The notes under the pieces: generated by a model
The model's database searches: none
The model's input: the letters and a program-made list of their open reading frames with translations, nothing else
Told to the model about the DNA's origin: nothing
Translations under genes and position numbers: made by a program
Shown here: positions 578 through 40,779 of the stretch, piece by piece
Layout of the letters: each line of letters starts with the position of its first letter
Numbering within the stretch: the stretch's first letter is position 1
NCBI GenBank assembly: GCA_963281255.1
Contig: OY725499.1
Coordinates: 3,367,148-3,431,147, forward strand
DNA from: Aphrocallistes beatrix
Taxonomy: Eukaryota; Porifera; Hexactinellida; Sceptrulophora; Aphrocallistidae
DNA length: 64,000 nt
Reading direction: 5' to 3'

Positions 578-3500
578 TCAATAATCTCCATCATCTCTCT
601 CGGTGGAAGCATCATTGGCATATTCGCTTGTGCTCGTAGGCATTTCAGACAATCGAGGGTACGTCCTACCTTGAGTACCTCTAGGAGGTGTAATTCTGCC
701 CATGGAATAATTGTCACTCGCTGGCTCACTGTCAGAGTACCAGCTCATCTCACTCCCCACCTCGCTCTCTCTACAACTAGCGGAGGAGGAGCAGCTATCT
801 CGTCTGGGATATTGTCTTTTACTCCGATTGGAAGTTTCGTAATTATTAGATAACATTTCTTCTGTTAGTTTGCAGAATTCATTTTCGTTCAACACATCAT
901 ACCGTTTCAACCACTCATCCCATAGCGGTGAACTGCAGAGTGTTTCACCATCTCCAATCCCGATCAGAATTAACTGTGCCCTGGTGAGCAACATGTTGAT
1001 TATATGCGGGTCCCCTGTAAGGCCTAGCTCAGCATTCGTATTACTCCTAACAGTGCTGAACACTACGACATTCCTCTCTCTGCCCTGAAAATCTTCTATA
1101 CTGCAAACATCCACATTAATCAGCGCAGATGCTAGTCTTTCCTTGATACACTGGACTTGTCCAGCATACGGAGTGAGTACGGTAATGTCGTTGAGAGAGA
1201 GAATGCCTAATGACATCAGTGCCTTCAACATCTCTACAACACCGTCCGCTTCGGTGGGATTCGAAATAGAGAATCCTGAACCAATTTCTGTAGACTCAAC
1301 ATGAATGAATACCACCGGTTTGTGAGTGTAGATAAATTTGAACACGGGAGATGGCCGTTTGCGTTCATCCACCGTTACACCGTTGCCCATCTTTCCCGAA
1401 TAAAACACCCTGGCTGGGAACTGAGCAATGTGTGGATGCATGCGATGCTGTTCTTCTAAGAACATAGGTCGTGCATGTTTGTAAAGTCTATGAAAGAGGG
1501 TAACTCTCAGAGCGTCAAAAGAAGGTATATCTTTAGAAGTGGGTTGTAGTGATGTTCCGATGGGAAGCGTTGGAGCCAACTGCTTCGGATCTCCAATTAA
1601 AACCAGTCTCTGACATGATTTCACTATGGGAATCAAAGACACAGGTTCTATCACGAGAGTTGCATCATCAATGAGTGTAAAAGTGAACTCAATCTCTTTC
1701 AATTCCCTACTCCCCGCATCAACACAGGTTGTAGCTATGACATCAGCCGAATTAAGAATTTCCTGTTTCAAACGATAAGGTTCAAATTGCTCTATCCTGT
1801 GTTGCACCTGAACTCGTTTCGTCAAGAGTTGTAAGTCTAATGTGTGCTCGTGGATGTCTGGAGAAACTAAACTCAGATTACCAACTCGTATAACAAACAG
1901 GTTTAGAGCTAACAGCTGGCGTGTCAGGATGTCAACAGTCTTATCAGTAGCAGCTGTTACTAGAATCTTACACTTGTAATCTTCATTCTGTTCATATAAA
2001 TGACACATTCGGTGGACAATCTCGGAGGCTACTACTGTTTTCCCAGACCCGGGATATCCGTGTATAAGAGTCAGCCTCTGACTAAGAGCTGCGGCAATAG
2101 CATCTTCTTGGCTACGGTTGAAATGGATTCTGTCTTTGCAAGTACTGCAATGATCTTTCTTGATTGGTGGATTATCTACAATCATTTCACTCCTGTTGTC
2201 TATAACCTCGTCAAGTAACGCTGTAGTAAACTCAGCATTGAGTTCCTCATTAGGGAGCACAGGCGGGAATGCATCTGGGGCTAGCAGGACGGGGGAGATA
2301 GGGGAGGAGGGCAGCTGCTGTAGAGCTCTGATGGACCGCTTGAAGCTCGTTACATTTCCTACTATAGTTAGGCCCCAGCATCCGATGCTTGACTGTGCTG
2401 ATCTCTTCACACAGTCAGGAACTGGCTCATGTATATCAACAGTGATTTGATTCTCATCTGCGCTACAGACGTTAACAATACGACCCAGTGCAATCGGATC
2501 GTTAGAATGCTCAGATCGAGGTGTAGGCAGGAGTCGTATCTTAACATAGGCCCCGGATACGAATCTACTGGAAAAAAACTTTTCAGTTCGGAAGAATGTT
2601 ACTTGAAGTAATTCGGGTTTCTCTTTTTTGATTGATTCTCCCTCTTCCTTATCCTCAATGCTTTCCACCTCCGGACCAACGGGAGAGTCTTGAGAGCACA
2701 TTGCCCTCAAACCGCAAACACTGCACTCCGTATCCACACTCTCTCCATACTCCCCTGCACTCGGAGACTTAGCTAGAAAGTGGGTAAGCAAAAGATATGC
2801 GAAGTAACACTTGTATAGATCCAACTGAGTCTCGTCAATTGGAGTGGGAGGCTTCTCACACGACCGAACTAAATCCTGGATCGTATTAGGCATTGGCGAG
2901 TCATCAGTGTCAGGCTGTTTAGAAGTTTTTGATAGCAGCATAGAATGTTTTAGGTATAACTTGTCTAACAGCTGATAGGATATGGATAGTGGGAGGAATG
3001 TCCACCATTCCCAGTGGGAAATAATTTCAAAGTATTGAGCTACAGTGTCCAGGTTAATGTTTCTTAATCCCTGGTCAATATGCAGTAATATGGCCTGATT
3101 CAGGTGAAGCTTCTGCAGACTCGAGTAGAGAAAGAGTAAATCTTTTGGAGTTTGAAATTGAATAAGAGGTGACTGTAGAATATTCATCAGACATCCGATT
3201 GTATCTTCTGTAGGTTTTATGTGTGAATTCTTAATAACGAAATTTGACAAGAGAGCGAGGACTTCATCTAATATTTTGTGTCGTGGAATGAGTTGCAACA
3301 CTTCATCATTTTGAATGGAAATAATCCGACTGAATTGCAGACAGTCTCCATTCTTAGCGAATTCCTTCAAGTCCTTCAGAGCAGCATCAGGAGCTAGTAC
3401 CCTGATTGGGTCAGTATCAAGAATTTCGATTTCTTTCGCAGTTTCCTCCTCACCAGGCACGTCCTCCAATACTTCATGAGGTAGAATTGAGTTAGTCGAG

Positions 3501-6500
3501 ATGTGTTCAATTGTCCAGCTTGGAATTTTGACGAATACTTCTGCTGAGTAGAAAGAGCATTTGTTGATATTCGCATAGTCTCTAGGAATTCCTCCTTTGA
3601 ACCGATTCAAGTCGATACTGATAATGTTGTGCTTTTGTGTGCCCTCCTTTCTATCGACAAATAATTTCCTCATATAGATGAAGGTATCGCAAATCTCTAG
3701 ATTCTGAAATACTTGAATGACGTCCTCAGTAAGTTTGAGATTGTACTCGCACTGTGTGACGTGACGCAGTGTAGATCCTAACTGAGGGGAATATATGCAA
3801 GTGGAGAGATAGCCAATGGGGATAATACCAGACTTCTCCTCTTTAAGAGGTCCAATGAAATGGAACGCCAACTTAACATCATTCAATACTAACTTGACGT
3901 CATGTTGCAGTTGTAGAACGAGCAGAGATTCAGGAAATTCCGTCAGAGCGCTGAGCAGATAATTCCAGTTGAAATCACTACTAGAAGCTTTGAAGTACAG
4001 CTTCCAACCATAAGTAGGAGAAGTGAGGTACAGGGGAAGGAGCATATCCCTGGTTAGGAGTCTGGACTTGTACAATGCATTCATGACCCTCTCAGCTGGG
4101 ATTCCGAGTTGAACAGCTTCTCTGCGCTCCACCAGTGTGAACATAGAGAAGTTGATGCTGTCTGAGAATTCACGCAGCATTCCTACCTTCTCACCTTCCT
4201 CCAAATCCTGCACACTGCACCACTTGCAGACCAGTGTGAATAGAGTGTATTCAGGGACTGCGCGGTTTTCATCTCCCAACAACGTCCTTATAAAAGCCTC
4301 ACTGATGGCTTGTACAGACTGACTGCTAGCTATCGCGTCCTCAATAACTTCTGCAATGAGCACGCGTCTACACCCCATCGCTGTTAGCTGCATTCTGTTC
4401 CAGAGCCTATCAGGGCGAGTTTTCAGAGGTCCCCGCGGAGGTAAGTATTCATGAGGTATCTTCACTTTATCCAATGAATGTGTGCTGAGAGATAACAGAG
4501 CTGCTAGTTTCTCGCACTCATTACAACCTGGCTCCTTTAAGTCCGCCCAAATTTGGAAGTAACCCCTGATCTGTGCGACCAAGTTCTCCTGCTCAGAGAA
4601 GAACTCTATCAGCATCTCTCTGGTGACGTCATGGTCAAGGGGTTCGCCTGGGAAATGGTAGTTCTTCGGTGCCACAGTTCTGGTCGGGATTAAGTCTCCA
4701 TCCCAGCACACGAAGTACTGGTCTCCTGCCAGGTCAGAGCCTCCCATCTCAGCGGCATGAGGCCGCTTAACCACAAGGCAGTCAATCAGGTAATTCAAAC
4801 ACTCATGCTCTACTGCGGTTAGTACCCGGAAGTCTCCGAGACTGTAGCACAGCCTCTTCCCGACCACGACCTGCGTTCCTGCTTTGACAGTCTCGGAAGT
4901 GCCATTATGTGAAATGCGAATAAAACACTCTCCATCCTTCAACACGTCCAGGGGGTCGCATACGCCGAACAACATCCGAGAATCTAGCAGAGGAACACTC
5001 AACTTCTCCATATTAAGAATCAGTTCATTCCGTACACGCTTCAGAGACAGCTGCACCCTATCCAGCTCCAAGTCTTGTGAAGATTCGCACAGAGCCGCGA
5101 TCTCAGAGTGATCCTTCCAATCCAGCATTAAGAGGGCAGATTCTCTGTCTCTCAACATGTTCTCTAAATGTCCATGGTACTGCTCCTGTCGCTTCAGGAA
5201 TACTTCGCTCCTCACTCCGAGGCAGGATAACAGCATGATGTGCTCCTTACTCAGGTGTCCGTACGAGTTGGGGCGGGAGTGTGCACACACCCAGAATGTC
5301 TGGAAGGCCCGTGTACCCGCTTCAAACTTCTCTGTGGACTTCCTGACATGGATAGTATCACTATCTACACGAGGCTCTTTGCTTACAACACACGTATACC
5401 CTAGAAACATGACCTGGAGTACAGATGGAATTCCATCCTCTGGAGATGAGACTTTAGCATTAGCTCCTTCAGCGATCTCTCCAGCTAGCTTAAGTCCTAC
5501 TCCTCCACACCCATCATGGCTAATAATAGCACCGACTGATTCCTCGACTTGATGGATCTTCCCACTGCACACTTCTACCCCCGAGTCTCTACCTGTTACG
5601 AACAGCTGACTGATTCCTCTCAGCTGCTCTGATATAATTCTAATATTAGAAAACTCTCCGAACTGAGTGAATAGCTTCTCAACATCTTCCACGCTGCCCT
5701 TCAACATGTAGCACTGCCTCGTGGTAACACCGCCAGGACTACAGCCTAGGAATTGGTACATGTCCCCATTCACCTGCACACCCTTGGTCAGGAGCTCTCG
5801 GATCAAGGAGCTGGTGAGTTTCCAGTGGAACTTGACACAGATGAAGTAATCCTCTCCGTAGGCGGCCATCACTCTGCAACTGGAAGAATCTTCCATAGGA
5901 ATGTAGCGCAGCTGTATTTCACTTGGGTTTATAAGAATTGTACGAATCATTTGCATCGTCTCCTCCTCACACAAGCGGTTCCTCTGCGCAGTCTCTTTGG
6001 ACAGGTAGAAGGAGAGACAGGGGTTGGAAATGAAACACCTCACAGGAACAGGGACCTCACCGTGAACAGCCTTTCTAAGAACTTCAATCCGTAGCTGGCG
6101 GTCTCTCTCTCCCAAATAGAAGTAGGGGATCTTAAGATTGGAGAGAAGCTCTCGAAGCCTACTGGTGAACTGCTCCTGCTCCTCTCTCCACTGGACCATT
6201 CGAAACCCGTCATCAGTGGTGGTTCCCAACGGACACACGATCACCACTAAACTCTGCCTATAGCGAGCGAAACACTGGATGGCCGCTTCAGATTTGGACA
6301 TTTCTGAAGCTAGCTCCTTGTTCTCCAACTGTGCGTAGACGATAGGGTCAGGCCCGCGGTCGGAGATGAAGAGACTCTCTTCTAGCTCAGTTTCCCACTT
6401 ATTCTGTTCCTCCAGGATTAGTCTCTGGAGTTCCAAGTATAACTCCTTCTCTGGAGTGTCACGAGATTTTAACAGATCTTCTCTGGATATGCTCCGCTCC

Positions 6501-6619
6501 TTCATCACATCTCTCGCGACCTCTGTTATCTGAGTGTACTCTTGGTGCATGGAGCACCAGTCTGCGGACAGAGTGGTCTTCCCGACCGAACTCGCTCCAC
6601 AGAGAATTATCTTAGACAT
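578..6619 (-). CDS. NadR/Ttd14-like P-loop kinase fused to an SF1 (UPF1/ZNFX1-like) helicase
   Basis: One uninterrupted 2013-codon frame. Seen at the N terminus: a Walker A motif GASSVGKT (residues 8-15) and a DRG motif (87-89), the arrangement of the AAA_28 / NadR-type nucleoside-kinase domain also found in Ttd14. The middle (about 200-1450) has no domain I recognise; it carries a CxxC-type cluster (CSVCGLRAMC) near 1300. The C-terminal third is a superfamily-1 helicase: CSTC followed by an FNRSQ Q-motif-like stretch, Walker A GYPGSGKT (1521-1528), Walker B-like LIDDAT (D1651-D1652), GDPKQLAP, EEQHRMHP, TPYAGQ, DFQGRE and LLTRAQ. The last 80 or so residues are Ser/Arg-rich and probably disordered. 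UPF1-like enzymes translocate on RNA or DNA using ATP, so an RNA surveillance or antiviral role like ZNFX1/HELZ2 is possible but inferred. The start ATG follows an acceptor-like tract. No intron is needed. Confidence 0.85.
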   Translation of the reverse strand: MSKIILCGASSVGKTTLSADWCSMHQEYTQITEVARDVMKERSISREDLLKSRDTPEKELYLELQRLILEEQNKWETELEESLFISDRGPDPIVYAQLENKELASEMSKSEAAIQCFARYRQSLVVIVCPLGTTTDDGFRMVQWREEQEQFTSRLRELLSNLKIPYFYLGERDRQLRIEVLRKAVHGEVPVPVRCFISNPCLSFYLSKETAQRNRLCEEETMQMIRTILINPSEIQLRYIPMEDSSSCRVMAAYGEDYFICVKFHWKLTSSLIRELLTKGVQVNGDMYQFLGCSPGGVTTRQCYMLKGSVEDVEKLFTQFGEFSNIRIISEQLRGISQLFVTGRDSGVEVCSGKIHQVEESVGAIISHDGCGGVGLKLAGEIAEGANAKVSSPEDGIPSVLQVMFLGYTCVVSKEPRVDSDTIHVRKSTEKFEAGTRAFQTFWVCAHSRPNSYGHLSKEHIMLLSCLGVRSEVFLKRQEQYHGHLENMLRDRESALLMLDWKDHSEIAALCESSQDLELDRVQLSLKRVRNELILNMEKLSVPLLDSRMLFGVCDPLDVLKDGECFIRISHNGTSETVKAGTQVVVGKRLCYSLGDFRVLTAVEHECLNYLIDCLVVKRPHAAEMGGSDLAGDQYFVCWDGDLIPTRTVAPKNYHFPGEPLDHDVTREMLIEFFSEQENLVAQIRGYFQIWADLKEPGCNECEKLAALLSLSTHSLDKVKIPHEYLPPRGPLKTRPDRLWNRMQLTAMGCRRVLIAEVIEDAIASSQSVQAISEAFIRTLLGDENRAVPEYTLFTLVCKWCSVQDLEEGEKVGMLREFSDSINFSMFTLVERREAVQLGIPAERVMNALYKSRLLTRDMLLPLYLTSPTYGWKLYFKASSSDFNWNYLLSALTEFPESLLVLQLQHDVKLVLNDVKLAFHFIGPLKEEKSGIIPIGYLSTCIYSPQLGSTLRHVTQCEYNLKLTEDVIQVFQNLEICDTFIYMRKLFVDRKEGTQKHNIISIDLNRFKGGIPRDYANINKCSFYSAEVFVKIPSWTIEHISTNSILPHEVLEDVPGEEETAKEIEILDTDPIRVLAPDAALKDLKEFAKNGDCLQFSRIISIQNDEVLQLIPRHKILDEVLALLSNFVIKNSHIKPTEDTIGCLMNILQSPLIQFQTPKDLLFLYSSLQKLHLNQAILLHIDQGLRNINLDTVAQYFEIISHWEWWTFLPLSISYQLLDKLYLKHSMLLSKTSKQPDTDDSPMPNTIQDLVRSCEKPPTPIDETQLDLYKCYFAYLLLTHFLAKSPSAGEYGESVDTECSVCGLRAMCSQDSPVGPEVESIEDKEEGESIKKEKPELLQVTFFRTEKFFSSRFVSGAYVKIRLLPTPRSEHSNDPIALGRIVNVCSADENQITVDIHEPVPDCVKRSAQSSIGCWGLTIVGNVTSFKRSIRALQQLPSSPISPVLLAPDAFPPVLPNEELNAEFTTALLDEVIDNRSEMIVDNPPIKKDHCSTCKDRIHFNRSQEDAIAAALSQRLTLIHGYPGSGKTVVASEIVHRMCHLYEQNEDYKCKILVTAATDKTVDILTRQLLALNLFVIRVGNLSLVSPDIHEHTLDLQLLTKRVQVQHRIEQFEPYRLKQEILNSADVIATTCVDAGSRELKEIEFTFTLIDDATLVIEPVSLIPIVKSCQRLVLIGDPKQLAPTLPIGTSLQPTSKDIPSFDALRVTLFHRLYKHARPMFLEEQHRMHPHIAQFPARVFYSGKMGNGVTVDERKRPSPVFKFIYTHKPVVFIHVESTEIGSGFSISNPTEADGVVEMLKALMSLGILSLNDITVLTPYAGQVQCIKERLASALINVDVCSIEDFQGRERNVVVFSTVRSNTNAELGLTGDPHIINMLLTRAQLILIGIGDGETLCSSPLWDEWLKRYDVLNENEFCKLTEEMLSNNYETSNRSKRQYPRRDSCSSSASCRESEVGSEMSWYSDSEPASDNYSMGRITPPRGTQGRTYPRLSEMPTSTSEYANDASTERDDGDY

Positions 6620-33105: not shown

Positions 33106-36100
33106 ATGTCCAGAAAAACGAGTTTGTTCGCTTCCTTACAAAATGTGACATTGGAACGAGACCTGTGTTGCATGGAAGCAGACCAAGCCAAGAAGGCTTT
33201 GGACCAAACCTCCTCCAACCACTTCAACCGCACCGTGTTGCACATAGCGTGTGAGCAGGGAAAGTTGGAAGTGGTGAAGTGTTGCTTAGAATTCGGTGCC
33301 AAACCTAATAAACTCTCCTCCCCTGCAGATCTGAAGAAAACACCTCTGCACGTGCTGATTCAGAAACACCCGAAAAACACGGCAGAAATAACTCAGCTCC
33401 TGATAGCCTACGGCGCCGACCCGACACTAGTAGACACGCAGAGACAGTCTGCACACGACTACGCCAATCAGCAGAATGACAAACAGCTGATCGAGATTCT
33501 CCGCAAAGCTGAGAGCATGCAGCTAATTGCAACCAAAAGCGCGCCCAAACAAGCTCCATACCTCCACTCGGACATAGAAAAGAAAGTGGAAGACTGCCAG
33601 GACAAGATAATGGAGCTCGTGAACAAGTTCGTCCTCAAAAGGCTCACACCTTTTGACCATGATAACTGGTCGCTTATCAACCGTGCCATCTTCCACTCCA
33701 ACTTTAACCTGGCCGCTGCCTTAGTCGAGTACACCTTAGAAATTCCGACCTGCAAACACCCGTACAACTTCTCTCCACTCCATCTCCTCGCGATATACCC
33801 GTGCATCAGTCTGTTCCAGGACACAATCAACAAGTTCCCTCGCCTCCTCTGCAGTAGAGATGCGGATCGGAACACGCCATTACACTTGGCTTGTCGCAAC
33901 GGAGGCATCGATCTGGTTAAAGTAATGTTAAAGTCAGACAAATCTATCTACATCGATCTCAACGCTAAGAACATACGAGGCTACACGGCACTGCACAACG
34001 CGGCTAGAGAAGGCCACACAGACATCGTGGAGCTCCTTCTGAAGATAAGACTGTCCAACAAGCACTGCTTATGGGACTACAAATCTAGAGTTACGATTGT
34101 AGACTCGAATAATAGAACTTTTCTTCTCAAAGCTATCCTTTCAGATCGAGTTGAGCTGGTCATCCTTCTCCTGACCCTTTATCCGGAGCTCATAAGGCCC
34201 ATCATAAACTGCCAGGACAGTGAAGGCAGATATTTCCTTCAGCTGGCTGTTGCCAAGGGACTCCATCAAGCACTGAGCTTATGCTTAGAACTGGAACCTA
34301 AAGTCACACTGACCGGGTTTTTAACGCTACAAGGCTACAAGAGCTTCGTATCCACTTGCCCTCCCGCTCTGGTTGAAAGTGTTCAAGAGGAGCCACAGGA
34401 ATTGGAGCAGAGTTTGCTGTATAGTATTCCTAACCATGATGACGCTGCCCTCACCTCTTCCATCCCGTCCAGCTACTCGAAGAACCTAAGCATCAACTCA
34501 CTCTCGAGCTCCCAGAGAGGCAGCTACAACACTAGCGGGAGCCTAGCCAGGAGCACAGGAGGCAGCTTAGAATCTAAAGGTTCTCACACTCAATCTCAAT
34601 CTCTCTCTCACAGTATTAGTAACTCATCATTGCATGAAGAAACTTCTCACACTGAGCACGTAGGTAAGGTTAGAGTGTTCGACCATTCAACTCAGTTCTC
34701 TCTGCAACCCTCTAATTACGTTACAATCCTTACGGAGTCGCTGTTGCACGAAGATCTCGCCATATTCGAAACTATAATCACATATATAATCTCAAAGAAA
34801 ATACCCCTCATAAACTTCCCAGATTTCTCGATAGCAACCTGCCTTGCAATACAACTGCAGAAGTGGAAGGCATTGGAGATGATACTGAGGTGTATTTACA
34901 ATGAGAGGATCGGCTACGAGGTCCGTTGGCATAAGTTGTTCCTAACGAACACAGCTCTCAGCTTCGTAATGCCGGATATAACCTCGTTCTACTTCCTCAC
35001 AGATCCAGACATGTCGTTTAACGACATAGTCGCACTCCTGATTACTAACAACGAGCTAACTGAAGTGCCAGAATTCACGTTACAGATGAAACAGTTGAAG
35101 AAACTATCTCTTGCTCACAACAAAATCACCAAAATCCCCCGTGCTCTCATCGCCAATGAAGAGCTGAGAGAGTTGGTGATGTCAGGAAATCCTTTGGAGA
35201 ACTTTCAAAACCTTTCTCAGGAAGTTCCCGTCCAACTATTCCGCTCGAAACTTCACAGGTTAGAGCTAGACAACTGCGGTCTAGACGTGTTCCCTGCGGT
35301 CATCGAAGAGCTAGGGGGGCTGCACCACCTCAACCTATCACACAACAACATCGAACTGATCCCCTCCTACATCTGGATGCACAGAGGCCTCCGACTGTTG
35401 AACCTCTCCCACAACCAATTGGGCCATCTGACAGAGAACGAGAGCTCTCGCTCTGTCTTGGTCAGACTGAGACCTCCCAGACAGGTGTCCACCTACTACG
35501 ACAAGAAGGTATCCCGACACCGATTCCAGACGCTACTCATCAGTTCTGATTCTGTTCCGGTCCGGAGTGTGCAGAGAACTTCCTTCGAGCACAGCATCAT
35601 CCCTGGTCTACAGTTGGATATGCAACAGAATTCGTCCGGCATATCGGAATTAGATCTGTCTTTCAATGAGTTTGACTCCTTCCCCACTAACATGGCGTGT
35701 CTGGTATCCTCTCTTAAGAAGCTAAACATGTCCAAGAACAGATTGAGTGATATTTTCCTTCCACTCATCCCATCCACTCTAATTGAACTGAATCTGGACG
35801 GAAACGACATCCACAACATCTCCACTGACTACCCTGACAGGGTGGTCAACTGCTTAACCGACGGACAACGCGCTCCCACACCCAGACCAGTGGCATTTGT
35901 ACCCTGCATGCACAGACAGCACGACGCATTGAATTGGCTTAAGACTCTATCCCTAGACAGGAATAAGATTGTAACGTTCCCACTGCTAATGAGTTCCAAG
36001 GACACCGAAGATAGTCTCATAACGAATACGGGCCACAACATTAATCAGGAACAGGAAGAAAAGAGATTGAGGTTTCCTGCTTTGGAGAATTTAAGTTTGG

Positions 36101-39100
36101 AGTATAATAATTTAATTTTTTTAACTCCACACATCCAGTACCAAGCTTCTATCCATGAGATCAATCTGGATGGAAATCCAGAGCTGGAAGGCTTACCATT
36201 CGAACTTGGCTACTTGAAATGTTTTAAAAGGTTGCAGCACATATCTGTCGCGGACTGTCCAAAGGTTGGGAACATTCCACCTCACATTTTCAACCAGGGC
36301 AGTATCAATACGTCTCTACTGATGCCTTACTTCAGAGCTCAATTGAAAGGTAGTGTGAAGAGCAATTTGGTCAAGTTAATGGTGATCGGGACTTTCAATC
36401 AAGGCAAGACAAGCCTACTTCGCAGGCTGAAAGGTCTAAGTCTCACTCAGCGCGTTCCCACTGAGGGCGTGGAAATAGATTCTTGGAAATGCGATTTCGG
36501 GAAGGGAAAGACGATAACCTTCGTAACATGGGACTTTGCGGGTCAAGAGGAGTACTACGCTACTCACCAATGTTTCTTAAGCACTGGAGCCCTCTACATA
36601 CTCTGTTTCTCTCTTGAAACTTTTTTTGACGCAGCTAAGAGCATGCAGGATATAGTCGAGTGGTTACAATCAATTGAACTGCGTGCCCCTCGATCTCCTG
36701 TGTTGATCGTAGGCACACATCTAGACAAAGTACCTGAAAATAAAGCCATGGAAATTAGAGATTTTCTTTACAACAGATTCGTCGAAAGAAGAAACATGAG
36801 CGAACGAATTCCAGATGTGATAGATGTGTTGTTGGTGTCATGTGTATACGATGCCCACTGGTTCTCTAAGCTGAAGAAGAAAATGGACACACTCAGGGAC
36901 ACTATACTCGATGTGGTAGGGCACCTGGCAATGGAGTATAATCTGTCGAGACAATGCATGACGTATGTATATAAAAAGAATTCTGAGCCGAAAGACCCGA
37001 AGTTGCTTCTGAATCAGCAAACACCGACAGACTATGAGAAGCTCCGCGAGAAGTTGTTCAGAGATAGCGCAGCTCTTGTGTCCGAAGGGAAACCTCCCAT
37101 TCTCCGAGACTCAGAGTTGAAGGCAACGGCAGAGCACATCATCGACAATCCTGACGATCTATTCGACGCAGTGGAACACCTGCACATGCAGGGGAGTATC
37201 CTGCACTTCAACACGCCCCTGTTGAAAGACGTCTACTTCCTGGACCCCAATTGGCTCTGCAAGCAGATGGCGCTGGTGATAGGAGCGCACACTGAGACGA
37301 ACAAATCCAACGGACTCGTTTCGCTCAACCATCTCGAGGAGACGCTAAAAGAAATGGAATGTTCGCACTTCTGGAACAAGTTTATTCGTTTGTTGGAACA
37401 ATTCCAGATCATGGTTCGGTTCTCAGAGGAGACTGTCCTCATCCCTTCACAGCTGCCGTTAGAGCCAGAGAGTGATGTCGGGGTTCTGAGGAATTTTCAA
37501 AAAAACTTAGCCCCTGAAAAGGACAAGAGCTATTACGTCCGCATCTGGCCACTGGAGTATGTGCCCCATGGGTTCTGGCCCCGTCTCCTCTGTCGTGTCG
37601 CCCAAGACCCAGTGATAATATCCCTGGTCAGCAGGAAATCTAACAGCGCTACCATATCTCTGCTGGGTGTTAAGGAAGATCTTTGCCGAACTAAGTCTGA
37701 AGTCACTCTACAGAGATACGATTCCGATATCAACTGGAATCTGTGGAGGAATGGCATCCAGCTCTTGGACAAGGATGGAACGATCCAATTCGAGGTGATT
37801 CAACTGTCAGAAGATTACCCGAGAATGCAAGACGGGGATACGGTTGTAGAGACAGAGGATCAGTTAAGGTTCTGGGTTGAGAAGAAGTTCCGGATTCTTT
37901 CTATCGTGCATATGGAACGGAGATTGGAGGAAGGACTCTACCACAGAGCTAGGACCTTGGCCTGCCAGCTCTTCATCCGCTTAGCCCAGCACATAAACTC
38001 CCTCTTCGAAGCTTGGTTCCCCGGAATCTTGAATCTGAACGGGGAAGTCCCCAGTTTCTACCCATGTCCGGACTGCTTCCTGAGTGACACGAAACGGGCT
38101 GCACCTGTTGTTACTGACCCAAATAGCAGCGCCAACTTTCTCAGATTCAAGAAGACCATTTGGAATTGCTTTCGGGAAGAAACCCTTTTCGACATGTTCA
38201 CTAAGAACGAGGAAGTGAGCTGCCACTGGCATGCAAAGGTCGACATCAGCAGACTGGCTCCGGATGTGAAGCTGCTGGACGTGGGTGCGGAGAGGATACT
38301 AAACCTCAGCACGCTGCGCATCCATCAGGGAAAGCAGCTGGGCGCAGGCAGCTACGGCGTGGTATATAAGGGAGAGATTTGGAATGAAGAGTTGAAGGAG
38401 GATCTTCCCTGTGCCATCAAGCTCTTCGCTACCAACACGATGGGGATGAGCTACGAGCATATTCTGGACAACATATCCCTGGTCGGACAGTGGAGTTCGT
38501 ATCAGGAGCTGCGGAAAGAACTGTCCCCAATGGTCCACCTGAAGCATAGGAACCTCGCGCTGTTGCTAGGCGTCACTGTCAATCCGTTGCAGATGATCAT
38601 GGGGCTAGCTCGTAAGGGTTCTCTCCTCAACATGATAAACCGGTACGCTGCGAAAGAGACCTTTTTCCACCCCTTCGTGGCGGCTAAGTCCATCTTGCAG
38701 ATAGCTTCCGGTCTCAACTACCTCCACTCCCACAACCTCGTGCATCTGGACCTGAAAGCTGCTAACGTGCTCGTGTGGGACTTCCCTGAGCCTGACGAGC
38801 AGAAGAAGGAATCGCTGGTGCATCTGAAGCTTGCCGACTACGGTACGGTCTTGCACTGTGACACGCTGGGGGTCCGTATGTCCAGTCTAGTCGGCACGCC
38901 AGGGTACATCGCACCAGAGGTGGTGCTCTATTCTGGTAAGCAGAGTTTCACTTCCAAAGCGGATGTGTTCTCGTTTGCAATGGTCATATACGAGATTCTA
39001 AGCTACAGGCCGCCCTTCATAAATTTTGACAACGCACACGATCAGCAGTGGGCACCCACGCAAGGACGTAGGCCTATTCTGCAGGGGAAAGAGAAGTACA

Positions 39101-40779
39101 GTCCCTGCCTGTTCCAGGATCTCATGCAGGCCTGCTGGGCTGCGGATCCTGATAACCGTCCGACAATGGCGGAATGCGAGGTGGTTGCGAACAATCCCCT
39201 CTTTCCTCACATCCGGAGCATAATGACCTTTGAGAACATGGTGCGGTTCACTTCCCATGCAGTCATAACTAATGATACAACGCGTAGCGCCATTGCTGGG
39301 AATATAGACGTGATGGAGATGGAAGGCGAAGAGGAGAATTCGATTCGGAGGTACTCTACCATGAATGCCGTACCCGTACCGCATAGAAGGCGAACACAGT
39401 CTGAGATAAACTTCAACAACACCCTGGCAGCAGAGAATACTCAGATATGGTTAGGGGCTTTCAACCACCCTTTCGCGAACAAGGTCGCGATAGTCCAGTA
39501 CCTACACGGTCAGATGGGTAACAGAGTCTGGTACGTAGACATTTTGCCAGCAGCCAGTGAAGCGAACGTCACTGTTCTCACCTCGGTGTATAGGCAAGTG
39601 TGGCTAGGCACGAGTACTGGTCGTTTGATTGTGATCGACGGGAATAACTTTAAAAAGCTGCCCTTGGAAATCTCTATTCTGAGTACTGCGGCGATTCATT
39701 CGATCAAACACGTTCAGATATGGAATATGGTGTTCATATCGTGTCGCTCTAATGAAGTGATGATCTTAAGAGACCAGCTGGAGTTCGATATCTCAGGAAA
39801 ATTCAACTTTAAAGTTATCAGCTTTATCGATTCGCAATATCCAGTGTACGCATTCCAGCTTGTACAGAAATCTGCTAGTTCCTGGGAGGTATGGGGGACG
39901 AAGGATTCATGTACGATCGAAGTGTTTCCGCTGTTAGCCAATGGTAAGTTAGGCCAGAATTTCACAAAACCACTGACCATGGACCCGACCGTTCGATACC
40001 AGCGATTCAACTGCATCGCTTCTTGCTTCAAAGAGGAAATCTCTGAGCAGAGTATCGATGGCTACGCAGTGGTGTGGATATCGGAATGGCAGCGGTCCAC
40101 TGCCTACGTGCTGGGAGCTGTCAGTCGTAGTTTGAGAGCAGGGGTGTGCATTCCTAAGGATCCGACGGATAGCGACGCGATCAAGGAGGTGAGTATGAAT
40201 GAGTATTTAATCCATTTAATAAACCACGAACTGTGAAAATCTCTTTATTAAGTCAACTCCGCTTAATCGGGACAAGTCTCCAGGAACGGAACGGTTCCCA
40301 TGGAAGCTAAATTTCATCGGTTAATTGGGAACTCCGCTTAATCGGGACAAAATATCCGGGACCAAAGGGTCCCGATTAAGCGGAGTCACCTGTAATTATA
40401 ATTCACAAATTCGTATGATTGAGAATCGATGCTTCGAGGATAAAGAAATTGTGGTCGTGTATATTATCCATGGTCAAATGTGTATTTATAGATTTCTTCA
40501 ATGTATAACGATGGCCGCGAGATTTTCATGGGAGTGAGTGATGGCTGTATTTATAAATACGACATGGTTACACGAATATTACTCAACAAGTATCAAATCC
40601 ATCAAACTAAAGTCAGGAAAATAATCCCTCTACCTCAGTTAGTTAACAGCTGTGTGTGTGCTGAGAAAGAATCGGATCATAACCAAATAATTATAACAGT
40701 TGGAAACGGGTTCTATCAGCATATCCCATCCAGCCAGAAGAATAAAGATTTATGTCTGGTGGCATTCAAGCTATTTTGA
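33106..40779 (+). CDS. LRRK1-like ROCO kinase (ankyrin-LRR-Roc-COR-kinase-WD40-like)
   Basis: Exons 33106-40188 and 40492-40779 (in phase) give 2456 aa. Domains in order: ankyrin repeats (about 40-330; TVLHIACEQG, TPLHLACRNG, TALHNAAREG), a Ser-rich linker (about 430-520), LRRs (about 640-1060; LSLAHNKITKIP, LNLSHNNI), Roc GTPase (P-loop GTFNQGKTS at 1095-1103, DFAGQEEYY, THLD), COR, a Ser/Thr kinase (GAGSYG from 1746, AIKLF, HLD with D1882, DYG at 1911-1913, GTPGYIAPE) and a C-terminal beta-propeller-like region. DYG in place of DFG is usual in LRRKs; the HRD arginine is Leu1881 here. N-terminal ankyrins with no armadillo region favour LRRK1 over LRRK2. LRRK1 works in endosomal and microtubule-linked signalling through Rab GTPases, so that role is inferred. 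AATAAA follows at 40832. An acceptor-like tract (GTTCTTTTAG) ends 28 nt before the ATG. Confidence 0.93.
40250..40392. mobile_element. Pogo-type MITE filling half of the LRRK1-like intron
   Basis: It starts AGTCAACTCCGCTTAATCGG and ends GATTAAGCGGAGTCACCTG, followed by TA. It matches the outer element at 14211-14910 without the nested insertion. It occupies 143 of the 303 bases of the only coding intron of the LRRK1-like gene. Confidence 0.85.

Follow-up and report, generated by a model that had tools for sequence, protein, structure and literature searches.

The 64,000-nucleotide stretch of Aphrocallistes beatrix DNA analysed here (the window) carries on its minus strand a coding frame (578-6619) for a 2013-residue protein, in which a kinase-like domain, the core of a cellular RNA-dependent RNA polymerase (RdRP), a region without family match, a UPF1-like helicase and a poorly conserved tail follow one another. 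The reading that we favour, with a probability of roughly two in three, is that the family to which this protein belongs would amplify small interfering RNAs (siRNAs) through its fused RdRP and helicase, the window copy being a retained pseudo-polymerase with a probably regulatory role.

Domain layout of the encoded protein

The frame begins with an ATG at position 6619, ends with a stop codon at 578-580 and contains neither an intron nor an internal stop, as the sequence-only reading of this stretch had stated. Elsewhere in the window lie exons that we take to be SOS-like. The N-terminal residues 3-170 (6110-6613) match the AAA_28 (NadR-like) family of P-loop kinase-like domains (PF13521) at E 2.5e-16, scoring 60.8 bits where the cut-off is 27, and the motifs from which such a domain had been proposed, Walker A GASSVGKT (residues 8-15; 6575-6598) and DRG (residues 87-89), are both intact. 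The likeness to NadR ribosylnicotinamide kinase and the AAA_28 family is that of a P-loop domain with these two motifs; however, the NadR model TIGR01526 stays far below its cut-off on the window copy (E 2.5e-5; 23.7 bits against 341), and a profile of the kinase-like domain built from four family members found nothing significant among solved structures (best E 0.11 for Rab7; 0.32 for NadR). AAA_28 matches were also obtained in the paralogs L011 and L012, and none in L013 at E 0.001 in the Pfam search. We refer to the domain as a putative kinase.

Residues 239-711 (4487-5905) correspond to the cellular RdRP core PF05183, degenerate in this copy (E 6.1e-68; 230.4 bits against a cut-off of 23.8), so that the claim of about 1200 unassigned residues between kinase-like domain and helicase is not supported. 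RdRPs of this class make the double-stranded RNA (dsRNA) used in RNA interference (RNAi). A profile of the four paralogous RdRPs recovers solved RdRPs at E 8.5e-71 to 2.5e-66, the best relatives being of the RDR type, presumably from plants, and QDE-1 matching more weakly (1.4e-14); the difference from RDR-type enzymes is that the best aligned stretch covers only profile positions 82-551 of 860. The following segment, residues 712-1498 (2126-4486), comprises the end of the RdRP and the region without family match. Pairwise identity among the four copies is 41-64% over the intervals measured here (712-1050, 1051-1340 and 1341-1495), and an SKTG segment of the RdRP end is missing from the window copy. 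Some 775 residues of the window protein (about 725-1498) gave no family match in Pfam and structure profile searches; within residues 1045-1500 no Pfam family appeared up to E 10, and no match to a solved structure went below E 0.3. YL1 matched this last region in two of the four family members (best E 0.00088), a match that we regard as a probable composition effect.

The superfamily 1 (SF1) helicase core occupies approximately residues 1499-1908 (896-2125). AAA_12 and AAA_11 match this C-terminal part at E 8.1e-45 and 1.8e-34, and its best matches in the PDB are UPF1/NAM7 (1.4e-50), which confirms the helicase type first suggested. The four-member helicase profile finds UPF1/NAM7 structures at E 3e-78 and scores them at 263-267 bits, against 177 bits for ZNFX1, whereas a control locus of the same genome (L016) prefers ZNFX1, by 398 to 111 bits. 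The ZNFX1 domain PF25396, present in 7/7 of the loci L014-L020, is absent from the best 25 of 26 Pfam families for the window protein (E up to 1) and from the three paralogs (E up to 0.001). A helicase of the ZNFX1/Hrr1 type was rejected on the higher UPF1/NAM7 scores and the absence of PF25396 within these limits. Note also that the N-terminal zinc-binding domain of UPF1 is absent from the same best 25 of 26 families (E up to 1), and that the best NCBIfam helicase model, IGHMBP2 (TIGR00376), falls below its cut-off in all four family members, this library being prokaryotic and no UPF1 model having been noticed in it. Assignment of the helicase as UPF1-like, not ZNFX1-like, is supported by this comparison with solved structures. 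The protein ends in a tail (residues 1916-2013; 581-874) with 19-22% identity to the paralogs.

A four-copy family among nine RdRP loci

Within the genome searched (100.5 Mb, 28 contigs), three full-length paralogs (L011, L012 and L013; 2028-2069 residues) align end to end with the window protein at 44-51% identity. All four proteins start with MS[KR]II[LI]CGA, and in the three paralogs an in-frame stop lies directly upstream of that ATG. The assembly error that the sequence-only reading had named as a threat to the fusion, a join of neighbouring genes, is practically negligible as an explanation, with no sign found in its favour, since an identical domain order, alignable end to end, recurs at four loci on three contigs (two on C13, one each on C11 and C1). 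FastTree support within the family is low (0.261 and 0.821 for the RdRP, 0.225 and 0.710 for the helicase), and we therefore claim no branching order. That the protein as a whole came from a virus or a prokaryote finds no support in non-exhaustive scans with short peptide patterns: a first scan of viral contigs returned one match (L040), confined to the helicase part at 26% identity, a second with an RdRP query returned none, and neither did two scans of genome contigs.

The genome holds nine PF05183 loci, and in each the RdRP shares its protein with a helicase, which is of either of two types. Four have the kinase-like, RdRP and UPF1-like helicase layout; the other five (the long class) combine a Dicer/RIG-I-type helicase, an RdRP and a nucleotidyltransferase for which support is weak. 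Genes of the Piwi-domain and Dicer-like kinds usually accompany RdRP-driven RNAi. Here there are 24 Piwi matches, ten of which lie within single frames 778-1016 residues long, and six of the nine Ribonuclease_3 matches form Dicer-like pairs in three frames of 1510-1538 residues. Many single-exon genes in Aphrocallistes and the absence of Wnt in glass sponges are described in the available text of two papers (PMC10282587, PMC10280926), in which the terms RdRP and RNA-dependent RNA polymerase have zero counts. A Wnt search of the present genome gave 0 matches, its controls having stayed silent as well.

Polymerase decay in an intact frame

The catalytic motif DxDGD is kept in all three paralogs and in 5/5 long-class RdRPs; in the window copy it reads D629-L-A-G-D633 (4721-4735), alanine replacing the middle aspartate. 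With this catalytic residue lost, the window copy most likely makes RNA no longer, and we regard it as a cellular RdRP by descent that is probably inactive as a polymerase. The PF05183 match of this copy is weaker than those of the paralogs (2.8e-110 to 4.7e-109), which have lost 2/43 (L011), 1/42 (L012) and 6/47 (L013) of the positions at which the eight remaining RdRPs do not vary. When L013 is taken as the outgroup, RdRP changes found only in the window copy outnumber those only in L011 by 112 to 37 (chi-square 37.8), the corresponding counts being 66 and 29 for the helicase and 12 and 9 for the kinase-like domain. When the five long-class RdRPs serve as outgroups, the window excess reaches a chi-square of 3.84 in 3/5 tests against L011 and 3/5 against L012, and in 0/5 against L013, whose RdRP branch, with the motif kept, is nearly as long as that of the window copy (0.64 versus 0.72).

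Such decay could mean that the window holds a duplicate on its way to extinction, in which relaxed selection erodes RdRP and helicase and the frame has so far escaped a stop. The window copy has indeed lost 16/57 of the invariant RdRP columns and 13/72 of those of the helicase, where Walker A is GYPGSGKT (2036-2059) in place of the GPPGTGKT of all three paralogs and motif II is DDAT followed by L (1658-1669) in place of their DEATQ. However, we consider this unlikely, as the frame has remained intact despite an RdRP branch of about 0.7 substitutions per site: it has 0 stops in 2013 codons, whereas 20 neutral drift simulations of L011, each run to only 25% divergence (75% identity), accumulated a mean of 26.1 and at least 18 stops. 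Furthermore, dN (0.31-0.51) is below dS (at least 1.1) in the kinase-like, middle and helicase regions, with dS mostly near saturation, so that it is chiefly the intact frame that argues for selection on the window copy. This selection may have been relaxed recently. Two sister copies present the reverse of the window copy, an intact polymerase motif with damaged kinase motifs.

Known relatives and a possible role in RNA silencing

RdRPs are described as patchy in animals, their role there being unsettled (PMC6396948, PMC6085071, in the text available). In the amphioxus candidate BL02069, likewise an animal protein, an AAA_12 helicase domain stands in the same chain as a cellular RdRP; compared by description only, this candidate differs in that no kinase-like domain is named for it, and its authors state that the catalytic site is conserved (PMC6396948, available text). 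The pairing of RdRP and helicase core was thus already known, and the proposal of an undescribed kinase-plus-helicase system is not supported, the core being a cellular RdRP. Among the matches listed from open-licence PMC papers, no earlier report of an AAA_28–RdRP–SF1 helicase protein was found, nor, in papers of that kind, of the kinase addition or of opposite domain decay. Small-RNA amplification by an RdRP and an SF1 helicase also has counterparts in the fission yeast RDRC (Rdp1, Hrr1 and Cid12) and in nematode ZNFX-1/EGO-1: the available text of PMC9276528 reports immunoprecipitation of ZNFX-1 together with EGO-1, and a joint function of Hrr1, an RdRP and Cid12. Those partners are separate proteins with a ZNFX1-type helicase, whereas the present family is fused and UPF1-like; as its helicase does not belong to the ZNFX1/Hrr1 group, it parallels the yeast complex in function alone.

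The presence of an RdRP in an animal does not by itself imply RNAi, since the authors of the amphioxus study speculate, in the text available, that RdRPs there act otherwise (PMC6396948). The sponge family could accordingly serve RNA surveillance, as the UPF1 type of its helicase would fit, or antiviral sensing, its RdRP making dsRNA signals and not siRNA precursors. We hold this to be rather unlikely in a genome that combines Piwi-domain genes and Dicer-like frames with nine RdRP loci, four of one layout, which makes RNA silencing the better reading. Of the RNA surveillance or antiviral enzyme initially suggested, the RNA-related role stands, and the word enzyme is doubtful for the window copy, whose polymerase motif is broken.

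Under RNA silencing, in those copies whose active site is intact, the helicase would remodel or clear the targeted RNA, the RdRP would copy it into dsRNA, and this would pass to Dicer and Argonaute, amplifying siRNAs much as partnered RdRPs and helicases do in yeast and nematodes, but here joined as one chain. The pseudo-polymerase of the window may have kept the ability to bind RNA or partners; retained with intact kinase-like motifs, it probably acts on the active sisters as a regulator, guide or competitor. A further, doubtful possibility is that the four copies divided the labour of an ancestral three-engine protein, the window copy keeping the kinase without polymerisation, two sisters keeping polymerase and helicase without the kinase, and one keeping all three. 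On that view the kinase would have a real part in making dsRNA in animals, for example by preparing RNA ends or nucleotides for use by the RdRP; we know of no such kinase role in any RdRP system.

Gene fusion points to activities that work together, and the nine helicase-fused RdRP loci of this sponge suggest such a partnership, to which the four-copy family brings a kinase-like domain that was not expected. Because sister copies show decay in opposite domains, they would provide natural separation-of-function variants.

A polymerase, a helicase and a kinase-like domain in one frame

The fusion gene in the window is indeed a single frame of 2013 codons without internal stops, as the sequence-only reading had proposed, and runs on the minus strand (578-6619; 2013 residues). 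Its predicted N-terminal kinase-like domain corresponds to Pfam AAA_28 (residues 3-170, E 2.5e-16) and its C-terminal helicase to AAA_11 (E 1.8e-34) and AAA_12 (E 8.1e-45), whereas the middle of the protein can no longer be called unassigned: residues 239-711 match PF05183, the RNA-dependent RNA polymerase (RdRP) of RNA silencing (Pfam scan, E 6.1e-68), which fills much of the gap. Sequence searches of solved structures matched residues 273-724 to RdRPs (best 1.4e-28) and residues 1499-1908 to UPF1 and NAM7 (best 1.4e-50), and an RdRP profile of the four paralogs described below gave a best match to a solved RdRP at 8.5e-71, with RDR2 at 2.3e-66 and QDE-1 at 1.4e-14. The label "UPF1-like" also holds for the helicase within a comparison limited to solved structures, where its four-member profile scored highest against NAM7/UPF1 (267-263 bits), followed by SEN1 (209), ZNFX1 (177) and SMUBP2 (169). 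L016, which is encoded in this genome and carries a ZNFX1 domain, served as control and scored 398 bits against ZNFX1 versus 111 against UPF1.

Besides the fusion family, seven single-frame ZNFX1-domain (PF25396) helicases (L014-L020) were found, two of which, L016 and L018, lie about 13 kb apart on contig C7. Twelve AAA_12 matches, of 36 in the whole genome, cluster in an array of SF1 helicase genes (G000:C1:11255663-11313868); eight of the twelve lie in frames measuring 1289-1465 aa, and a scan of one array gene, L025, detected no additional Pfam family at E values up to 1e-6. The window holds a second very long single exon (33109-40233, plus strand; 2375 aa), whose ankyrin repeats, leucine-rich repeats, Roc, COR-A and protein kinase domains make up a LRRK-like layout. 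Wnt gave no matches in the genome, where the search controls were likewise silent; its absence would fit a glass sponge.

Two classes of RdRP loci in the genome

PF05183 matches nine loci in the assembly that contains the window (28 contigs, 100.5 Mb); all nine candidates were scored, and their open frames range from 2019 to 2639 codons. Four are of the window type: the window copy (contig C13), L011 (2069 aa, C11), L012 (2043 aa, C1) and L013 (2028 aa, C13). The RdRP precedes AAA_11/AAA_12 in all three paralogs, and AAA_28 is detected in L011 and L012; L013 has no match at E 0.001, although its N-terminal region aligns to the window copy at 44% identity. Scoring 29 of 47 candidates for AAA_28 in the genome gave three matches, all within the fusion family; intron-split copies elsewhere could escape this search.

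The five long-class loci are single-exon RdRP fusions of about 2600 aa (2576-2636 aa): L035 (1961-9709), L036 (1925-9691), L037 (1040-8947), L038 (1365-9092) and L039 (1867-9627). In the two scanned whole, a DEAD/Helicase_C helicase is followed by the RdRP and a nucleotidyltransferase-like segment, and the alignment shows the helicase motifs to be common to all five. Their five-member helicase profile matched (best 3.7e-74) Dicers, RIG-I-like proteins and AncD1D2, a reconstructed Dicer helicase. The nucleotidyltransferase assignment is tentative, since PF22600, matched in all five (best E 1.9e-6), scored 20.0-22.1 bits in two members, under the cut-off of 27, and the segment matched no solved structure up to E 0.1; a GSxSxxLCxxxSDLD motif is nevertheless present in all five members. 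These loci resemble the yeast-type RdRP complex in combining helicase, RdRP and the weakly supported nucleotidyltransferase, here within one chain.

Opposite decay of domains among the four copies

The RdRP catalytic motif reads DLAGD in the window copy versus D[LM]DGD in all three paralogs and all five long-class RdRPs, and an SKTG segment present in the paralogs is missing from it. Its helicase motif II (DDATL) and Walker A (GYPGSGKT) likewise differ from the DEATQ and GPPGTGKT of the three paralogs. The kinase-like Walker A and DRG are both kept in the window copy and L011, while L012 has GASSIGKT with DGG at the DRG position and L013 has lost both motifs (GANSADKA, EAG).

Domain decay differs among the copies, as counted by the invariant columns each has lost. 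Where all eight remaining RdRPs agree on a residue, the window copy has lost 16/57 columns, L011 2/43, L012 1/42 and L013 6/47. The helicase counts, taken over columns that are constant in the three remaining family members and the outgroups L010 and L009, were 13/72, 1/60, 0/59 and 1/60 in the same order; the kinase counts, over columns constant in the three remaining members, were 7/64, 2/59, 13/70 and 29/86. Polymerase and helicase have therefore decayed more than kinase in the window copy, and the reverse is seen in L012 and L013; based on four copies, these counts describe a pattern and do not amount to a statistical test. L013 is, moreover, divergent in general: of the RdRP columns on which the three remaining members agree, it has lost 61/232 (window copy, 100/271).

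With L013 as outgroup, window-only versus L011-only changes numbered 112 versus 37 in the RdRP, 66 versus 29 in the helicase and 12 versus 9 in the kinase. With the five long-class outgroups, the RdRP excess of the window copy reached a chi-square of at least 3.84 in 3/5 tests against L011, 3/5 against L012 and 0/5 against L013; for the helicase (outgroup L010 or L009) it did so in 4/6. L013 and the window copy have RdRP branches of similar length (0.64 and 0.72), so the window copy stands out less by its rate than by the type of site it has lost.

Nei-Gojobori estimates between the window copy and L011 or L012 gave dN of 0.31-0.51 and dS from 1.1 to saturated. Neutral simulations ended at 75% identity (n=20) accumulated 26.1 stops on average and at least 18, versus none in the window frame, which indicates that, for the greater part of its past, the window copy has been maintained as protein-coding. 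Most probably it is now a pseudo-polymerase, kept in some other role, and its kinase-like motifs are intact.

RNA-silencing context

All 24 Piwi-domain matches in the genome pass the cut-off, and ten are encoded by single frames 778-1016 aa long; four consecutive matches lie on one strand at G000:C13:444877-459986. Of nine Ribonuclease_3 matches, six form pairs, one pair in each of three frames (1510-1538 aa), the arrangement expected of Dicers. In Porifera, RdRPs have been reported, with one in the sponge studied, according to an excerpt of PMC6085071, whereas the sponge Amphimedon is stated in a passage of PMC6211395 to lack RdRP genes. The pairing of RdRP and SF1 helicase is already known from an amphioxus RdRP bearing AAA_12, for which the authors speculate, in an excerpt of their report, on a role outside RNAi (PMC6396948); new here are the third, kinase-like domain, the four-copy family and the opposite decay of its domains. 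We read the fusion family as an RdRP–helicase machine in one chain, and infer that its role is most likely the synthesis of dsRNA for RNA silencing.
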